DNA of 64,000 nucleotides, taken from the NCBI GenBank assembly GCA_003564185.1, contig PXFS01000055.1:27017-91016 (forward strand). Direction: 5' to 3'. This DNA is from Flavobacteriaceae bacterium (lineage in GTDB: Bacteria > Bacteroidota > Bacteroidia > Flavobacteriales > Flavobacteriaceae). The notes beneath the pieces were generated by a model. That model was not told the DNA's origin, ran no database searches, and saw only the letters and a list, made by a program, of their open reading frames with translations. Of this stretch, positions 17,812 to 25,320 are shown one piece after another (within the stretch, counting starts at the first letter, position 1; every line of letters begins with the position of its first letter). Made by a program: the position numbers and the translations under genes.

Positions 17812-18555
17812 ATGAGAATTAAATTCAGTATACTATTGTTGTTATTTTTATTAAGCTTTAATGCTTTAGGACAAAATCAATCCAATCAAGTATTTGTCTC
17901 TGGTGCTTTAAGTAATGTTATGAAAAATGGAGATCTCCAAAGTACTATTTTGTTAGACACTATCTCAACCAAGGAAAATTTATATGGATTAGGTCCTAAA
18001 CATTACCTAACAGGTGAATTGCTTATTATGGATGGTGAGGCTTATGTAACTTCAATTGATGATAATGGAGCTATTAAAATGGAAAAAACTTTTCAAGCTA
18101 AAGCACCTTTTTTTGTTTATACCTATGTTGAAGAATGGGAATCTTATCGACTTCCTAAAGACATTACAAGCTTTCAGGAACTTGAAAAATATTTACTTCA
18201 AAAATCTAAAGAATACAATACACCTTTTGCTTTTAAGCTTCAGGGAGTTTTTAATAAAGTTGAATTCCATATTCAAAACCTACCTAATGGAACGCTAGTT
18301 AAATCTCACAAAGACGCACATCAAGGGCAAAAAAAATATGTACGGAAAAATATCAATGGTGACCTTATTGGTTTTTTCTCTACACAACACCAACAAGTTT
18401 TTACCCACCATAATCAATTTATTCATATTCACTTTATCAATCAAGAAAAAACAGAGATGGGACATGTAGATGACTTTTTATTTAGTGAAGCTGATAATAT
18501 CTTACTGTTTCTTCCCAAATTGAATAAAGTATTAAATACGGACTTAAAAAATTAG
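17812..18555 (+). CDS. exported acetolactate decarboxylase-like protein
   Basis: Signal peptide MRIKFSILLLLFLLSFNALGQ; ALDC-like GALSNVMKNGDL, GELLIMDGEAY, PFAFKLQGVFNKVE, and HIHFIN..MGHVDDF zinc-site pattern. Confidence 0.72.
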   Translation: MRIKFSILLLLFLLSFNALGQNQSNQVFVSGALSNVMKNGDLQSTILLDTISTKENLYGLGPKHYLTGELLIMDGEAYVTSIDDNGAIKMEKTFQAKAPFFVYTYVEEWESYRLPKDITSFQELEKYLLQKSKEYNTPFAFKLQGVFNKVEFHIQNLPNGTLVKSHKDAHQGQKKYVRKNINGDLIGFFSTQHQQVFTHHNQFIHIHFINQEKTEMGHVDDFLFSEADNILLFLPKLNKVLNTDLKN

Positions 18556-18599: not shown

Positions 18600-18607
18600 T
18601 ATATTTG
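18600..18607 (+). promoter_or_regulatory. putative -7 element TATATTTG for the trp operon
   Basis: Exact TAnnTTTG match immediately 5' of the trp leader ORF; no strong -33 TTTG identified. Confidence 0.45.
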
Positions 18608-18611
18608 CTTT

Positions 18612-18674
18612 ATGCTAATAAACTTAAATTATACTTGGTGGTGGAAAATATTTACGTCAAACGTCGTGAAATGA
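18612..18674 (+). CDS. trpL: trp operon leader peptide MLINLNYTWWWKIFTSNVVK
   Basis: ATG CTA ATA AAC TTA AAT TAT ACT TGG TGG TGG AAA ATA TTT ACG TCA AAC GTC GTG AAA TGA; three consecutive Trp codons just upstream of a terminator and trpE. Confidence 0.87.
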   Translation: MLINLNYTWWWKIFTSNVVK

Positions 18675-18698
18675 TTCCTCATTGAGTTTATAAAAAAC

Positions 18699-18734
18699 AA
18701 AAAAAGGCTTGTCAAACACGACAAGCCTTTTTTT
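18699..18734 (+). terminator. trp attenuator terminator
   Basis: AAAAAAAGGCTTGTC-AAACAC-GACAAGCCTTTTTTT, 15-bp perfect stem ending in 7 T, between the leader ORF and trpE. Confidence 0.9.
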
Positions 18735-18761
18735 GTTGATAAAAAAACGAATAACAAAAAC

Positions 18762-20156
18762 ATGAAACTAAGGACCACATACACCAAAATGCTTGCCGAC
18801 ACGCACACGCCGGTAAGTATGTATTTAAAATTAAGGGATGCTTTTCCCAATTCAATATTGCTAGAAAGTAGTGATTATCACGCTAATGATAAAAGTTTTT
18901 CTTACTTATGTTGTCACCCCATAGCCGAATTTAAAGTTGATAATCATCAATTAAGTACAGCTAAATTAGGAAAAACCACAACTCAAAAAATTAATCCAAA
19001 TAAAGGTAAAGTGGTTCAACTCCTAAAAGAATTTATCAATAGTTTTGAAGTAGAAAAGCAAGATTTTCCTTTTTTAACCAGTGGACTATTTGGGTTTACA
19101 GGTTTTGATGCTATTCAGTACTTTGATACGCTCAAAGTCAATCCTAAAAAAGAACTAGAACTTCCACAAATACATTATAAAGTATACCAAAACATAATAG
19201 TTGTAGATCACTTTCATAATCAACTCTATATTTTTGATCACAGTCCTGATGGAAATTCTAAACTTAATAAAGTCCAACAGATAATTCAACAGCAAAGTTT
19301 TCATCAGTTTCCTTTTCAGCTAAAAGGAGAAATTAAATCGAACATATCAGATGATTATTTTAAGGACATGGTAGCCAAAGCCAAAGAGCATTGTCAGCGC
19401 GGAGATGTATTTCAGATGGTAGTTTCCAGGCGCTTTTCTCAAGAATTTAATGGAGATGAATTTAATGTTTACAGGGCTTTAAGAAGCGTAAATCCTAGTC
19501 CCTATCTTTTTTATTTTGATTTTGGAAATTATAAAATTTTTGGAAGTTCTCCAGAAGCACAACTCATAGTGCAAGATAATCAAGCTGAAATTCACCCTAT
19601 TGCTGGAACCTTCAAACGAACTGGAAATGATGCAGAAGATGCCAAAACAGCCAAATTGCTAGCAGAAGATCCAAAAGAAAACGCTGAACATGTTATGTTA
19701 GTAGACCTTGCTAGAAATGATTTAAGTAAGCACGCCAACCATGTTAATGTGGTTAAATACAAAGAAATTCAGTATTTTTCACATGTCATTCATTTGGTTA
19801 GTAAAGTTATTGGAGAAATTAAAAATAAAGATCAAAAATTGCCTATTACAGCTTCTACTTTTCCTGCGGGAACATTGTCAGGTGCTCCTAAATACAAGGC
19901 CTTAGAGCTCATCAACAAATATGAGCCTTATGCCAGAGAAGCCTATGGAGGAGCCATTGGAGCCATAGATTTTAGCCATAATTACAACCATGCCATCATC
20001 ATAAGAAGTTTTGTAAGCAAATCTCAACACCTTCACTTTCAGGCTGGTGCAGGAGTGGTTGTAGATTCAAATCAAGAAAATGAATGGGCAGAAGTGAATC
20101 ATAAATTAGGAGCCTTAACCAAAGCTTTAAACCATGCAGCAAATGAATTTAATTAA
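18762..20156 (+). CDS. trpE: anthranilate synthase component I
   Basis: Chorismate-binding motifs (VFQMVVSRRF, GSSPEAQLIV, PIAGTFKRTG, STFPAGTLSGAPKYKALELI, EAYGGAIG); first gene of trp operon. Confidence 0.95.
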   Translation: MKLRTTYTKMLADTHTPVSMYLKLRDAFPNSILLESSDYHANDKSFSYLCCHPIAEFKVDNHQLSTAKLGKTTTQKINPNKGKVVQLLKEFINSFEVEKQDFPFLTSGLFGFTGFDAIQYFDTLKVNPKKELELPQIHYKVYQNIIVVDHFHNQLYIFDHSPDGNSKLNKVQQIIQQQSFHQFPFQLKGEIKSNISDDYFKDMVAKAKEHCQRGDVFQMVVSRRFSQEFNGDEFNVYRALRSVNPSPYLFYFDFGNYKIFGSSPEAQLIVQDNQAEIHPIAGTFKRTGNDAEDAKTAKLLAEDPKENAEHVMLVDLARNDLSKHANHVNVVKYKEIQYFSHVIHLVSKVIGEIKNKDQKLPITASTFPAGTLSGAPKYKALELINKYEPYAREAYGGAIGAIDFSHNYNHAIIIRSFVSKSQHLHFQAGAGVVVDSNQENEWAEVNHKLGALTKALNHAANEFN

Positions 20157-20167
20157 TTTTCATACAA

Positions 20168-20283
20168 TTTGGGCGTTCCCCTTAAAAATTCGATTGATTT
20201 TTAAGGGTCGGGCTTTTCGCTATATCTTTTTTGGCCATTTATTCAAGCCAAAAAAGGATGCCACTACAATCCCTAACGCAAGT
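20168..20283 (+). repeat. structured intergenic element between trpE and trpG
   Basis: GGGCGTT...AACGC ends closing two perfect hairpins: CCCTTAAAAAT/ATTTTTAAGGG (20179-20189/20197-20207) and CTTTTTTGGC/GCCAAAAAAG (20226-20235/20247-20256); conserved-looking linkers GTCGGGCTTTTCGCTATAT and GATGCCACTACAATCCC. Confidence 0.6.
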
Positions 20284-20324
20284 TTCTCTTTCATTACAAA
20301 CAATCAAATAAAAAAAATAAACCA

Positions 20325-20927
20325 ATGAAAATATTAGTCATTGATAATTACGATTCCTTTGTTTTTAACCTTGTTCACTACTTAGAGGAGTTCTCTAACA
20401 ATGTAACAGTAGTTAGAAATGATGAAATAGAAATCAGTCAAGTTCATGATTATGACGCCATACTTCTCTCTCCTGGACCAGGTGTTCCAGAAGAAGCTGG
20501 AAAACTAAAAGAAATCATTCGTACCTATGCATCCCAAAAACCCATTTTAGGAGTTTGTTTAGGTCAACAAGCTATTACAGAAGTATTTGGAGGAAGTTTA
20601 GAAAACCTCTCTAGAGTTTATCATGGAGTAGCCACTAAAATAAAAGTTATTGATTCTTCAGAAATTTTATACCAAGGATTACCTACTGAATTGGAAATTG
20701 GAAGGTACCATTCTTGGGTGGTACACCAACAATTACCCGATTGTTTAATTGCTACTTCTGTTGATGAAGAGGGAAATATAATGTCAATTAGACACAAGGA
20801 ATATGAAGTAAGGGCTGTTCAATTTCACCCCGAATCCATACTAACTCCAGAGGGTAAAAAAATGATTCATAATTGGGTGGAACACTTAACTAAATTAATG
20901 AAAATAAAAATTCCACAAAGCTCCTAA
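20325..20927 (+). CDS. trpG: anthranilate synthase component II (glutamine amidotransferase)
   Basis: NYDSFVFNLVHYLEE, LSPGPGVPEEAG, GVCLGQQAI, QFHPESILTPEG. Confidence 0.95.
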   Translation: MKILVIDNYDSFVFNLVHYLEEFSNNVTVVRNDEIEISQVHDYDAILLSPGPGVPEEAGKLKEIIRTYASQKPILGVCLGQQAITEVFGGSLENLSRVYHGVATKIKVIDSSEILYQGLPTELEIGRYHSWVVHQQLPDCLIATSVDEEGNIMSIRHKEYEVRAVQFHPESILTPEGKKMIHNWVEHLTKLMKIKIPQSS

Positions 20928-20937
20928 AGCATAACTT

Positions 20938-21927
20938 ATGAAAGATACTTTAAAACGATTAATACAATTTGAAGAATTAAGTCAGCAAGAGGCTAAAGAA
21001 TTACTCATCAATTTAACAAAATCTAATTATTCTGAAGCTGAGCTAGCTTCATTCTTAACGGTTTATATGATGCGTAAAATAAGTCTAAAGGAATTAAAAG
21101 GTTTCAAAGAAGCTTTATTAGAATTATGCAAACCAGTTCAACTTTCAGAATTTGACCCAATAGACTTATGTGGAACCGGAGGAGATGGAAAAAACACCTT
21201 CAATATTTCGACCTTAGCCGCTTTTGTTTCAGCTGGAGCCGGTGTAAAAGTTGCTAAGCACGGTAATTATGGAGTTTCTTCTGTTAGTGGAAGTTCTAAT
21301 GTACTTGAGCATTTAGGCATAAAATTCAGCAGTGATGAAGACTTTCAGAAAAAATGTATAGATAAAACAGGAATCTGTATTTTACATGCGCCTTTATTTC
21401 ATCCCGCTATGAAGTACGTTGGTCCAGTTCGAAAAAAATTACAACTTAAAACTTTTTTCAATATGTTAGGACCAATGGTTAACCCCTCCTTTCCAAAAAA
21501 ACAAGTGGTAGGGGTTTTTAGTTTGGAACTATTACGCATGTATGCCTATATATTTCAACAGGAGGATAAAAAATTTAGTATTTTACATGACTTAAACGGT
21601 TATGATGAAATTTCACTAACTGGAAAAATAAAAATTTTCAATTCAAATAAAGAAGAAATTTTAGAACCTGCGAATTTTGGAAGTCAATGGCTACAACCAA
21701 ATCAACTTTTTGGAGGAAAAACAGTTGATGAAGCCGCTCAAATTTTTTGGAAAATACTTTCAACAGAAGGAACTGATGCACAAAATAAAGTGGTTATTGC
21801 CAATGCCTCTTTAGCCATTTCTTTAGCCAAAGACATAACTTATAAAGAGGCTCTTATTCAGGCTGAAGAATCACTTCTCGGCAAAAATGCCTTGAAAGCT
21901 TTTAACGAATTAAAATCAATGAACTAA
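20938..21927 (+). CDS. trpD: anthranilate phosphoribosyltransferase
   Basis: CGTGGDGKNTFNISTL, KHGNYGVSSVSGSSNVLEHLG. Confidence 0.95.
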   Translation: MKDTLKRLIQFEELSQQEAKELLINLTKSNYSEAELASFLTVYMMRKISLKELKGFKEALLELCKPVQLSEFDPIDLCGTGGDGKNTFNISTLAAFVSAGAGVKVAKHGNYGVSSVSGSSNVLEHLGIKFSSDEDFQKKCIDKTGICILHAPLFHPAMKYVGPVRKKLQLKTFFNMLGPMVNPSFPKKQVVGVFSLELLRMYAYIFQQEDKKFSILHDLNGYDEISLTGKIKIFNSNKEEILEPANFGSQWLQPNQLFGGKTVDEAAQIFWKILSTEGTDAQNKVVIANASLAISLAKDITYKEALIQAEESLLGKNALKAFNELKSMN

Positions 21928-22715
21928 TGTATATTTTAGAGAAAATTGTAACACACAAAAGAAAAGAAATTGATCAACGAAAAAAAGAAAAATCCTTAGC
22001 TGAATTGAAACTAATGGAATTTTATTCTTTACCCTGTAGATCTGTAGTAGACCATTTTGAAACTCGAAATAAAAATATCATAGCAGAGTTTAAAAGAAAG
22101 TCGCCAAGCAAACCTGATATCAATCTTAATGCTGACCTTAAAAATCAACTACTAAGTTATCAAGAAGCTGGAGCTTCAGCTGTTTCAATATTAACAGACA
22201 AACATTTTTTTGGTGGTAGTTTAAATGATTTATTGCTAGCCAAAAAAGAACTATCAATTCCTATTTTACAAAAAGATTTTATTATAGATGAGTATCAAGT
22301 ACATGAAGCAAAAGCTCATGGAGCTGACTTTATTTTATTGATTGCTAAAGTTTTAACCATTGCAGAAGTGCAACAATTATCAACATTAGCTCAAGATTTA
22401 GGGATGGAAGTTTTAGTTGAAGTACACTCAGCTGATGAACTTGTAAAAACCAATTTTACTAGCATAAATCTAATTGGAGTAAATAATAGAAATTTAGAAA
22501 ATTTTGAAACCTCTATTGAAAATAGCATACAATTAGCTGGACAAATACCCCTAGAATTTGTGAAAGTTAGTGAAAGTGGTATTAAGCACAGACAAGATGT
22601 TACCGAATTATATCAAGCTGGTTATGAAGGCTTCTTAATTGGAGAGGAACTGATGAAATCAGAAAATATTGCTGAAAAAATGAGTGAATTGATTGGACAA
22701 AAATTTAGCTTATAA
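21927..22715 (+). CDS. trpC: indole-3-glycerol phosphate synthase
   Basis: IIAEFKRKSPSKPDIN, ILTDKHFFGGSLNDL, LIGVNNRNLENFE. Confidence 0.95.
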   Translation: MYILEKIVTHKRKEIDQRKKEKSLAELKLMEFYSLPCRSVVDHFETRNKNIIAEFKRKSPSKPDINLNADLKNQLLSYQEAGASAVSILTDKHFFGGSLNDLLLAKKELSIPILQKDFIIDEYQVHEAKAHGADFILLIAKVLTIAEVQQLSTLAQDLGMEVLVEVHSADELVKTNFTSINLIGVNNRNLENFETSIENSIQLAGQIPLEFVKVSESGIKHRQDVTELYQAGYEGFLIGEELMKSENIAEKMSELIGQKFSL

Positions 22716-23353
22716 TGAAACCTATCAAATTAAAAGTTTGTGGATTAAAGTATCCTAAAAATCAAGAGTTGATTAGTCAACTCCCAATTGATTACGCAGG
22801 TTTTATTTTCTATAAAAACTCCAAAAGAAACACTATAAGTGTTAGCGAAAAACTTCCGGATCATATTCAAAAAGTTGGGGTTTTTGTTGATGAAGACATT
22901 ACTGTTATAACTAAAAAAATTAAACAATTCAATTTAAATGTTATTCAGCTACATGGTAGTGAAAATGTAGATTATATTGTTCAACTTAAAGCAAAAATAA
23001 CTCATCTTAAATTGAATGATATAGAAATTTGGAAAGCCATTCCTGTAAAGGAAGTTTCAGATTTGGAAAAAATCAACTATTATGAAAATGATGTAAATGT
23101 CATTCTGCTAGATGCCAAAGGGAAAAATCCTGGTGGAAATGGAATTAAATTCAACTGGGACTATTTAGCCCATATTGATTCTAATATACCTATCATGCTT
23201 AGTGGTGGAATTAAAATTGATGATATAGAAGCATTAACTAAAATCAAAACAAAAAACATGATCTGGGGAGTTGACATTAATAGTGGGTTTGAAATTAATC
23301 CTGGTCTAAAAAATGCCAGTAGAATTCAACATTTTATTAATCGATTAAACTAA
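22715..23353 (+). CDS. trpF: phosphoribosylanthranilate isomerase
   Basis: KVCGLKYPKN, YAGFIFYKNSKR, VIQLHGSE, LDAKGKNPGGNGIKFNW, MLSGGI. Confidence 0.93.
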   Translation: MKPIKLKVCGLKYPKNQELISQLPIDYAGFIFYKNSKRNTISVSEKLPDHIQKVGVFVDEDITVITKKIKQFNLNVIQLHGSENVDYIVQLKAKITHLKLNDIEIWKAIPVKEVSDLEKINYYENDVNVILLDAKGKNPGGNGIKFNWDYLAHIDSNIPIMLSGGIKIDDIEALTKIKTKNMIWGVDINSGFEINPGLKNASRIQHFINRLN

Positions 23354-23359
23354 AAGGAC

Positions 23360-24535
23360 ATGATAAAAGACGGGTATTACGGAGAATTTGGAGGTGCATA
23401 CATTCCGGAGATGCTTTATCCTCCAGTAGAGGAATTACGTTTGAACTATGAAAAAATTTTAGCTTCAAAAAGCTTCCAAAATGAATTTCAAGAGCTTTTA
23501 AAAAGTTATGTGGGTAGACCAACTCCTTTATATTTTGCTAAGAACTTAAGCAAAAAAATAGGCTGTAAAATCTATTTAAAAAGGGAAGATTTATGCCATA
23601 CTGGAGCGCATAAAATAAATAATACCGTAGGGCAAATTTTAATTGCTAAGCACTTGGGTAAAAATAGAATTATTGCCGAAACTGGTGCTGGACAACATGG
23701 TGTTGCTACGGCTACGGCTTGCGCTTTGATGGGTATGGAGTGTTTGGTGTACATGGGCGAAAAAGACATCAAAAGACAAGCCCCTAATGTATCACGAATG
23801 AAAATGCTAGGCGCAAAAGTTGTTCCTGCAACTTCTGGAAGTAAAACGCTAAAAGATGCTACTAACGAAGCGATTAGAGATTGGATCAATAATCCTGAAA
23901 GCACCCACTACATTATTGGCTCGGTGGTGGGCCCTCACCCCTATCCCGATTTAGTTGCGCAATTGCAGTCAGTAATTTCTAAGGAAGTAAAAAAGCAATT
24001 GAAAGAATTAGAAGGAAGAGATTATCCGGATTATCTTGTGGCTTGTGTTGGTGGAGGGAGTAATGCGGCTGGTTTGTATTACGACTATTTAGAAGATGAA
24101 AGAACAAAAATTATTGCTGTTGAAGCTGCAGGTAAAGGAATTTTAACTAGTGAATCAGCGGCAACTACTCAATTAGGAAACGTGGGTATTATTCATGGAA
24201 GCAAAACCTTGTTAATGCAAAATAAAGACGGACAAATCACCGAACCTTATTCCATTTCTGCAGGTTTAGATTATCCAGGAATAGGCCCCATGCATGCCCA
24301 TTTATTTACCAGTCAACGCGCTGAATTTATCAGTATTGATGATCACGAAGCTATGCAAGCTGGATTAGCATTAAGCAAAACCGAAGGCATTATTCCAGCT
24401 ATTGAAACATCGCATGCTTTTGCCATTTTTAAGCATAAAGATTTTCAGCCAGAAGACGTGCTTGTTTTTAATTTATCAGGCCGAGGCGATAAAGACCTAG
24501 CTACTTATATAGACTACTTTAAACTTGAAGAATAA
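23360..24535 (+). CDS. trpB: tryptophan synthase beta subunit
   Basis: GEFGGAYIPEMLYP, KREDLCHTGAHKINNTVGQ, ACVGGGSNAAG, NLSGRGDKD. Confidence 0.97.
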   Translation: MIKDGYYGEFGGAYIPEMLYPPVEELRLNYEKILASKSFQNEFQELLKSYVGRPTPLYFAKNLSKKIGCKIYLKREDLCHTGAHKINNTVGQILIAKHLGKNRIIAETGAGQHGVATATACALMGMECLVYMGEKDIKRQAPNVSRMKMLGAKVVPATSGSKTLKDATNEAIRDWINNPESTHYIIGSVVGPHPYPDLVAQLQSVISKEVKKQLKELEGRDYPDYLVACVGGGSNAAGLYYDYLEDERTKIIAVEAAGKGILTSESAATTQLGNVGIIHGSKTLLMQNKDGQITEPYSISAGLDYPGIGPMHAHLFTSQRAEFISIDDHEAMQAGLALSKTEGIIPAIETSHAFAIFKHKDFQPEDVLVFNLSGRGDKDLATYIDYFKLEE

Positions 24536-25320
24536 TGATTGATCAGAAAATTAAAAATCGTATTGAAGAAAAAATTGCTTCAAAAGATAATTTACTAAAT
24601 ATTTACTTCACAGCTGGTTTCCCAGGAATTGAAGATACCAGAAAAGTCATTACTAATTTAGTAAATTCAGGAGTAGACATGATTGAAATAGGCTTGCCAT
24701 ATAGTGATCCAATAGCAGATGGAGAAGTGATTCAAAAAAGCTCTACACAAGCCTTGAGAAATGGAATGAATACTTCATTATTGTTTCAACAATTAGAAGG
24801 AGTTAGAGATGAAGTGGATGTTCCTTTTATTATAATGGGCTATTTTAATGCAATGCTTCAGTACGGGATTGAAGAATTCTGTCAAAAATGTAATTCAATC
24901 GGTATTGATGGCATCATCATGCCCGATTTACCTATTGAGACCTATGAAAATGAATATAAAACTATTTTTGAAAAATATCAATTGAACTTTATCTGTTTGA
25001 TAACTCCACAAACTTCAACAGAAAGAATTAAGAAAATTGACTCCGTAAGTTCAGGATTTATTTATGCCGTAAGTAGTGCATCAACTACAGGTAAAACAGA
25101 TGGATTTGGAAGTGAACAAATCAATTATTTCAAACGAATTCAATCCATGAATTTAAAAAACAAATGTATGGTTGGTTTTGGTATTAAAGACCAGCAAAGC
25201 TTTTCGCAGGTATGTCAATATGCTAAAGGGGGTATTATTGGAAGTGCTTTTATTAAATTTTTAGAAGAAAACGGAGTAGATAGGACAGATGAATTTGTTA
25301 AGAACATCCGATTTGAATAA
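24535..25320 (+). CDS. trpA: tryptophan synthase alpha subunit
   Basis: FTAGFPGIEDT, DMIEIGLPYSDPIADG, GIIMPDLPIE, VSSASTTG. Confidence 0.95.
   Translation: MIDQKIKNRIEEKIASKDNLLNIYFTAGFPGIEDTRKVITNLVNSGVDMIEIGLPYSDPIADGEVIQKSSTQALRNGMNTSLLFQQLEGVRDEVDVPFIIMGYFNAMLQYGIEEFCQKCNSIGIDGIIMPDLPIETYENEYKTIFEKYQLNFICLITPQTSTERIKKIDSVSSGFIYAVSSASTTGKTDGFGSEQINYFKRIQSMNLKNKCMVGFGIKDQQSFSQVCQYAKGGIIGSAFIKFLEENGVDRTDEFVKNIRFE

Follow-up and report, generated by a model that had tools for sequence, protein, structure and literature searches.

The window, by which we mean the whole 64-kb stretch of flavobacterial DNA that was analysed, carries a tryptophan operon in the order trpE-G-D-C-F-B-A, preceded by a short leader (Table 1). 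Within the leader, a small upstream open reading frame (uORF) with three consecutive TGG codons is followed by an intrinsic terminator, in which a perfect 15-bp stem (18699-18713 paired with 18720-18734) encloses the loop AAACAC (18714-18719), includes a run of seven T (18728-18734) and can be extended to 18 bp (18696/18737); the start codon of trpE lies 24 nt past the 18-bp stem. An earlier note on this sequence had recorded the uORF, the 15-bp terminator with its seven T, and trpE at 18762. Our reading reproduces the uORF to the base and finds the terminator as described, and profile matches identify trpE and, next to it, the remaining genes of the operon. The uORF is the only short ATG-initiated ORF with WWW on either strand of the window, a scan of which found no repeated-codon leader besides that of trp. 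In the 2.63-Mb assembly, the pattern TGGTGGTGG-N14-22-TCGTG-N20-50-CACGA matched the leader alone, and the reversed control of this pattern gave 0 matches.

Two neighboring features may be recorded here. The gene just 5' of the leader (17812-18555, plus strand) resembles acetolactate decarboxylase (TIGR01252, 1e-19, well under the cut-off) and has a signal-peptide-like N-terminus. A Flavo-1 RNA element (RF01705, 58.4 bits) occupies 20202-20284 in the gap of about 170 nt between trpE and trpG, on the strand opposite to the operon; one further copy is present elsewhere in the assembly, and the element may have entered the trp operon as a mobile or repeat-like insertion.

Table 1. Features of the trp leader and operon, in positions of the window.
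Feature	Position	Strand	Basis
Sigma-A type -7 box, TATATTTG	18600..18607	+	sequence; published flavobacterial consensus
Leader peptide uORF, MLINLNYTWWWKIFTSNVVK (20 codons) plus stop	18612..18674	+	sequence; WWW/WW kept in relatives
Three tandem Trp codons (sensor)	18636..18644	+	predicted pairing with 18677-18684 in untranslated RNA
5' hairpin P1 (1:2-type, anti-antiterminator) over the Trp codons and antiterminator strand	18629..18693	+	minimum-energy fold of naked RNA
Antiterminator 5' strand, core GUCGUG	18663..18668	+	18 nt past last Trp codon; spacing, covariation
Antiterminator 5' strand, extension (UGAU, CCU, UU, GUUU)	18672..18689	+	stalled-ribosome fold
Antiterminator 3' strand, core CACGAC	18717..18722	+	sequence; spacing, covariation
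Intrinsic terminator: 18-bp stem (15-bp core 18699-18734), 6-nt loop, U7	18696..18737	+	sequence, folding
Rfam RF01692 Bacteroid-trp match, 56.8 bits	18592..18713	+	covariance model
trpE, first gene of the regulated operon	18762..20156	+	best match TIGR00564 trpE_most, 1e-129, under curated cut-off
trpG, trpD, trpC, trpF, trpB, trpA	20325..25320	+	profile matches, in order

The leader region aligns with the full length (1-131) of the Rfam model RF01692, Bacteroid-trp, and scores above the gathering threshold of 49 bits. This family, described as "Bacteroidete tryptophan peptide leader RNA", derives from Weinberg et al. 2010 (PMC2864571), and the leader agrees with it in its position 5' of tryptophan biosynthesis genes in a Bacteroidota genome, in its UGG-rich consensus and in a stem over the Trp codons, P1 overlapping the RF01692 stem. 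The assignment to Bacteroidota was judged from the type of promoter and the RNA families present (RF01692, Flavo-1). The leader is thus an instance of a known RNA family, and its kind is already known: a leader of the RF01692 type was reported 5' of the Flavobacterium psychrophilum trp operon in 2019 and likened to the E. coli attenuator (PMC6414381), and a 2021 transcriptome of the same species gave strong clues for leader-peptide attenuation 5' of amino-acid operons (PMC9723704). The remark in the earlier note that a clean example from Bacteroidota was still worth documenting is, in light of these records, out of date. The Rfam model stops within the 5' arm of the terminator, and therefore lacks both the terminator 3' arm and the GUCGUG:CACGAC pairing, which are present here. 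Relative to this model and to the open-access literature, our additions are modest: a covarying antiterminator, a fixed spacing from the Trp codons, a different register of the antiterminator in other families, and a predicted leaderless start.

To judge conservation, we collected leaders from related genomes. Of 200 genomes of the same family, which represent 199 genera, 143 (from 142 genera) carry RF01692; among 396 genomes sampled from the phylum, 43 do, most of them members of that family. Among 189 distinct leaders, 180 have WWW in the uORF and the other 9 have WW. Most of these relatives were gathered with the RF01692 model, which itself contains UGGUGGUGG, and because the model includes the UGG run we made a check independent of it, in which 29 genomes without an RF01692 match were searched with TrpE. 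The trpE gene was found in 23, and every one of these (23/23) has a WW or WWW uORF within 300 nt upstream of trpE, as against 0.6% of shuffled sequences. The clear Trp leaders that RF01692 missed in these 23 genomes (L161-L183), 7 of them from a second family of the same order, indicate that the Rfam model is too narrow. A terminator hairpin is present in all uORF-bearing relatives except L093, and the in-frame tandem TGG codons are kept while the remaining peptide varies.

Three outgroup loci (L134, L139 and L157) had been considered as trpE loci lacking a leader; this was rejected, as the operon is headed by trpB and the leader precedes that gene. The same arrangement, a trpB-first operon with a Trp leader before trpB, is seen in L184, and in L186 and L187 the operon begins with trpD and the leader precedes trpD (a visual judgement based on the start of the protein). 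All six loci belong to other families of the class. The leader thus follows the head of the operon, which is consistent with the different operon order in some outgroups.

The pairing of GTCGTG with CACGAC had been put forward in the earlier note as a short, 6-bp antiterminator whose second strand spans the terminator loop and the base of the 3' arm. The pairing itself stands on fixed spacing and on covariation across genera; its location has to be corrected, since CACGAC comprises the last three loop bases and the three loop-proximal bases of the 3' arm, that is, its top. In 119 of 129 leaders, the antiterminator strand starts 17-19 nt past the last TGG, and with respect to the stop codon it lies anywhere from -10 to +13. 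A constant distance to the TGG codons combined with a variable distance to the stop codon is what one expects if a stalled ribosome sets the geometry. The commonest form among relatives is UCGUGA:UCACGA, and pairing is restored with changed letters in L106 (TTTGTCGCAAT:ATTGCGACAAG, one G-U pair and the others Watson-Crick) and in L200 (TCGTAAAC:GTTTACGA), with matched changes also in L131/L132 and in L083/L101/L110. Quite different sequences that still pair are found in the outgroups L170, L172 (CGGGGTTCT:AGAACCCCG), L173, L174 and L185 (TCAAAGTCTT:AAGACTTTGA).

We compared native antiterminator duplexes with those formed after swapping partners among leaders. Native duplexes average -15.1 kcal/mol versus -12.3 kcal/mol for swapped ones (z about -9.3), and the difference is also seen in the divergent subset (-15.3 versus -10.9 kcal/mol, z about -8.9). 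The a:c pairing of P1 is likewise better with native than with swapped partners (z about -9.6), and the swap test gave no native preference in a control region before the Trp codons. In an alignment of 177 leaders, 21 cells of the antiterminator helix show changes on both sides, where shuffles gave 5.7 (at most 11 in 300), and pairing falls from 85% to 22-51% when the partner is shifted by 1-3 columns. The shuffles leave relatedness among the leaders in place, a concern that is lessened, but not removed, by the column shifts and by the partner swaps with their control region. Judged from these comparisons of sequences, the 6-bp GUCGUG:CACGAC antiterminator is real. We further consider it likely that an antiterminator missing from the Rfam model is common to Bacteroid-trp leaders throughout the phylum. 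Its partner would have drifted between the terminator 5' arm, in several outgroup families, and the loop with the top of the 3' arm, in the family of this flavobacterium, keeping a near-fixed distance to the Trp codons. On the same view, some of the species, this one among them, would translate the leader peptide from a leaderless RNA.

Stepwise folding of the exposed RNA, with ribosome footprints that are textbook approximations, predicts how these elements exclude one another. In naked RNA, P1 forms first, with the Trp codons paired to 18677-18684, and the terminator follows. With a ribosome stalled on the first or the third Trp codon, P1 is blocked and the antiterminator is the optimal fold until the RNA is exposed to about 18724-18726, a limit that precedes the emergence of most of the terminator 3' arm. 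With a ribosome at the stop codon, the terminator alone forms. The folded antiterminator has about 15 pairs, so that the 6 bp of the note are its core; beyond GUCGUG:CACGAC it includes UGAU:GUCA, CCU:AGG and further pairs, with the extension bound to the terminator 5' arm and to the A-rich bases ahead of it. It competes with the 5' hairpin, in which the Trp codons are sequestered. We had also considered a pairing with the terminator loop alone, a pseudoknot crossing the Rfam stem, and rejected it, as duplex and folding predictions extend into the terminator 5' arm and overlap the 5' hairpin; with this reach, the classical 1:2 / 2:3 / 3:4 scheme suffices. Once the RNA is complete, the terminator (-25.8 kcal/mol) greatly exceeds the antiterminator (-14.3 kcal/mol) in stability, and antitermination must therefore be kinetic. 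Classical attenuators likewise switch kinetically.

The transcription start can be predicted from the promoter. A simple sigma-70 scan gave nothing useful at the leader, and the terminator scan run with it listed the opposite strand only; the Bacteroidota -7 consensus was used instead, and TATATTTG fits it. The G of TAHHTTTG is at -5 in F. johnsoniae (PMC6847099), and in F. psychrophilum the box spans -12 to -5 (PMC9723704). With the G of TATATTTG placed at -5, the predicted +1 falls at 18612, on the A of the ATG that opens the uORF. The box motif occurs within 45 nt upstream in 174 of the 189 leaders, compared with 3% of shuffles; in 33 leaders it lies 4-5 nt from the start codon, and in 59 the separation is 17-19 nt. 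This uORF and those of a subset of relatives are accordingly spaced as predicted leaderless, or nearly leaderless, reading frames. Leaderless mRNAs are uncommon in flavobacteria, with 5.5% of the mRNAs with mapped starts in F. psychrophilum (PMC9723704).

We propose, with a probability of roughly 0.93, that the leader attenuates transcription of the trp operon by a ribosome-mediated mechanism. This is the best reading, was already put forward in the earlier note, and is well supported by comparison with relatives. The locus combines a tandem-Trp leader ORF, an intrinsic terminator before the first structural gene and a covarying, mutually exclusive antiterminator. Sequence, conservation, spacing, covariation and predicted alternative folds are shown here; that the uORF is translated, that the ribosome stalls on it and that Trp starvation brings read-through is inferred. 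Transcription would probably begin on the uORF ATG. When Trp-tRNA is ample, the ribosome would reach the stop codon at 18672 and cover GUCGUG, the terminator would form and transcription would stop. When Trp-tRNA is scarce, a ribosome stalled on the UGG codons would open the 5' hairpin, leaving GUCGUG and the following bases free to pair with the terminator as it emerges, from its 5' arm through the loop to the top of the 3' arm, so that the terminator could not nucleate and trpE-A would be transcribed. If the leader were left untranslated, the 5' hairpin would keep the antiterminator strand and termination would follow.

Attenuation of the classical type has long been established in E. coli, whose trpL (RF00513) shares with the flavobacterial leader a Trp-codon leader peptide, alternative 1:2, 2:3 and 3:4 structures, and ribosome position as the switch. 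The two are non-homologous by Rfam search, RF00513 giving no match in the leader region up to E = 5. The enterobacterial leader has two tandem Trp codons and the flavobacterial one three; the latter, in addition, is predicted to be leaderless, has an antiterminator that extends into the terminator loop and the top of the 3' arm, and stands in an assembly in which TrpR was not found. In Sinorhizobium meliloti, the trpL RNA begins on the uORF ATG, as is predicted here, and no repression of trp operon transcription by Trp is reported; that leader differs in phylum and sequence, and has a known function in trans (PMC7298713).

Besides attenuation, the released short RNA or the leader peptide could act in trans, as do rnTrpL and peTrpL of S. 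meliloti, and the predicted start of the leader RNA on the uORF ATG is a feature in common with that system (PMC7298713). The peptide is poorly conserved beyond the Trp run, which argues against a peptide function in trans, and we regard such an additional role as unlikely.

Trp genes of other phyla are under the control of TRAP, TrpR or T-boxes, and the flavobacterial leader might by analogy be governed by a protein that binds Trp, by a T-box that senses tRNA or by a small-molecule riboswitch rather than by a stalled ribosome. A search of the 90%-complete assembly recovered neither TrpR (PF01371) nor TRAP (PF02081), within the leader region no T-box or riboswitch family attained its threshold, and the retention of in-frame tandem TGG codons in an otherwise variable peptide also speaks against such control, which we consider very improbable. 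That the hairpin is a plain terminator of the upstream gene, which lies on the same strand about 145 nt before it, and the WWW ORF a coincidence, is hardly credible and is refuted by conservation, given a WWW/WW uORF and terminator 5' of trpE across many genera and families, including all 23 trpE-bearing genomes chosen for an absent Rfam hit, and a promoter-like box right before the uORF in most leaders.

Read as an attenuator, the flavobacterial leader would support, at the level of sequence, ribosome-mediated attenuation of tryptophan genes well outside the Proteobacteria. It supplies a candidate antiterminator for an Rfam family whose model has none, and an RNA model that includes the terminator would catch many leaders that the present Rfam model misses.
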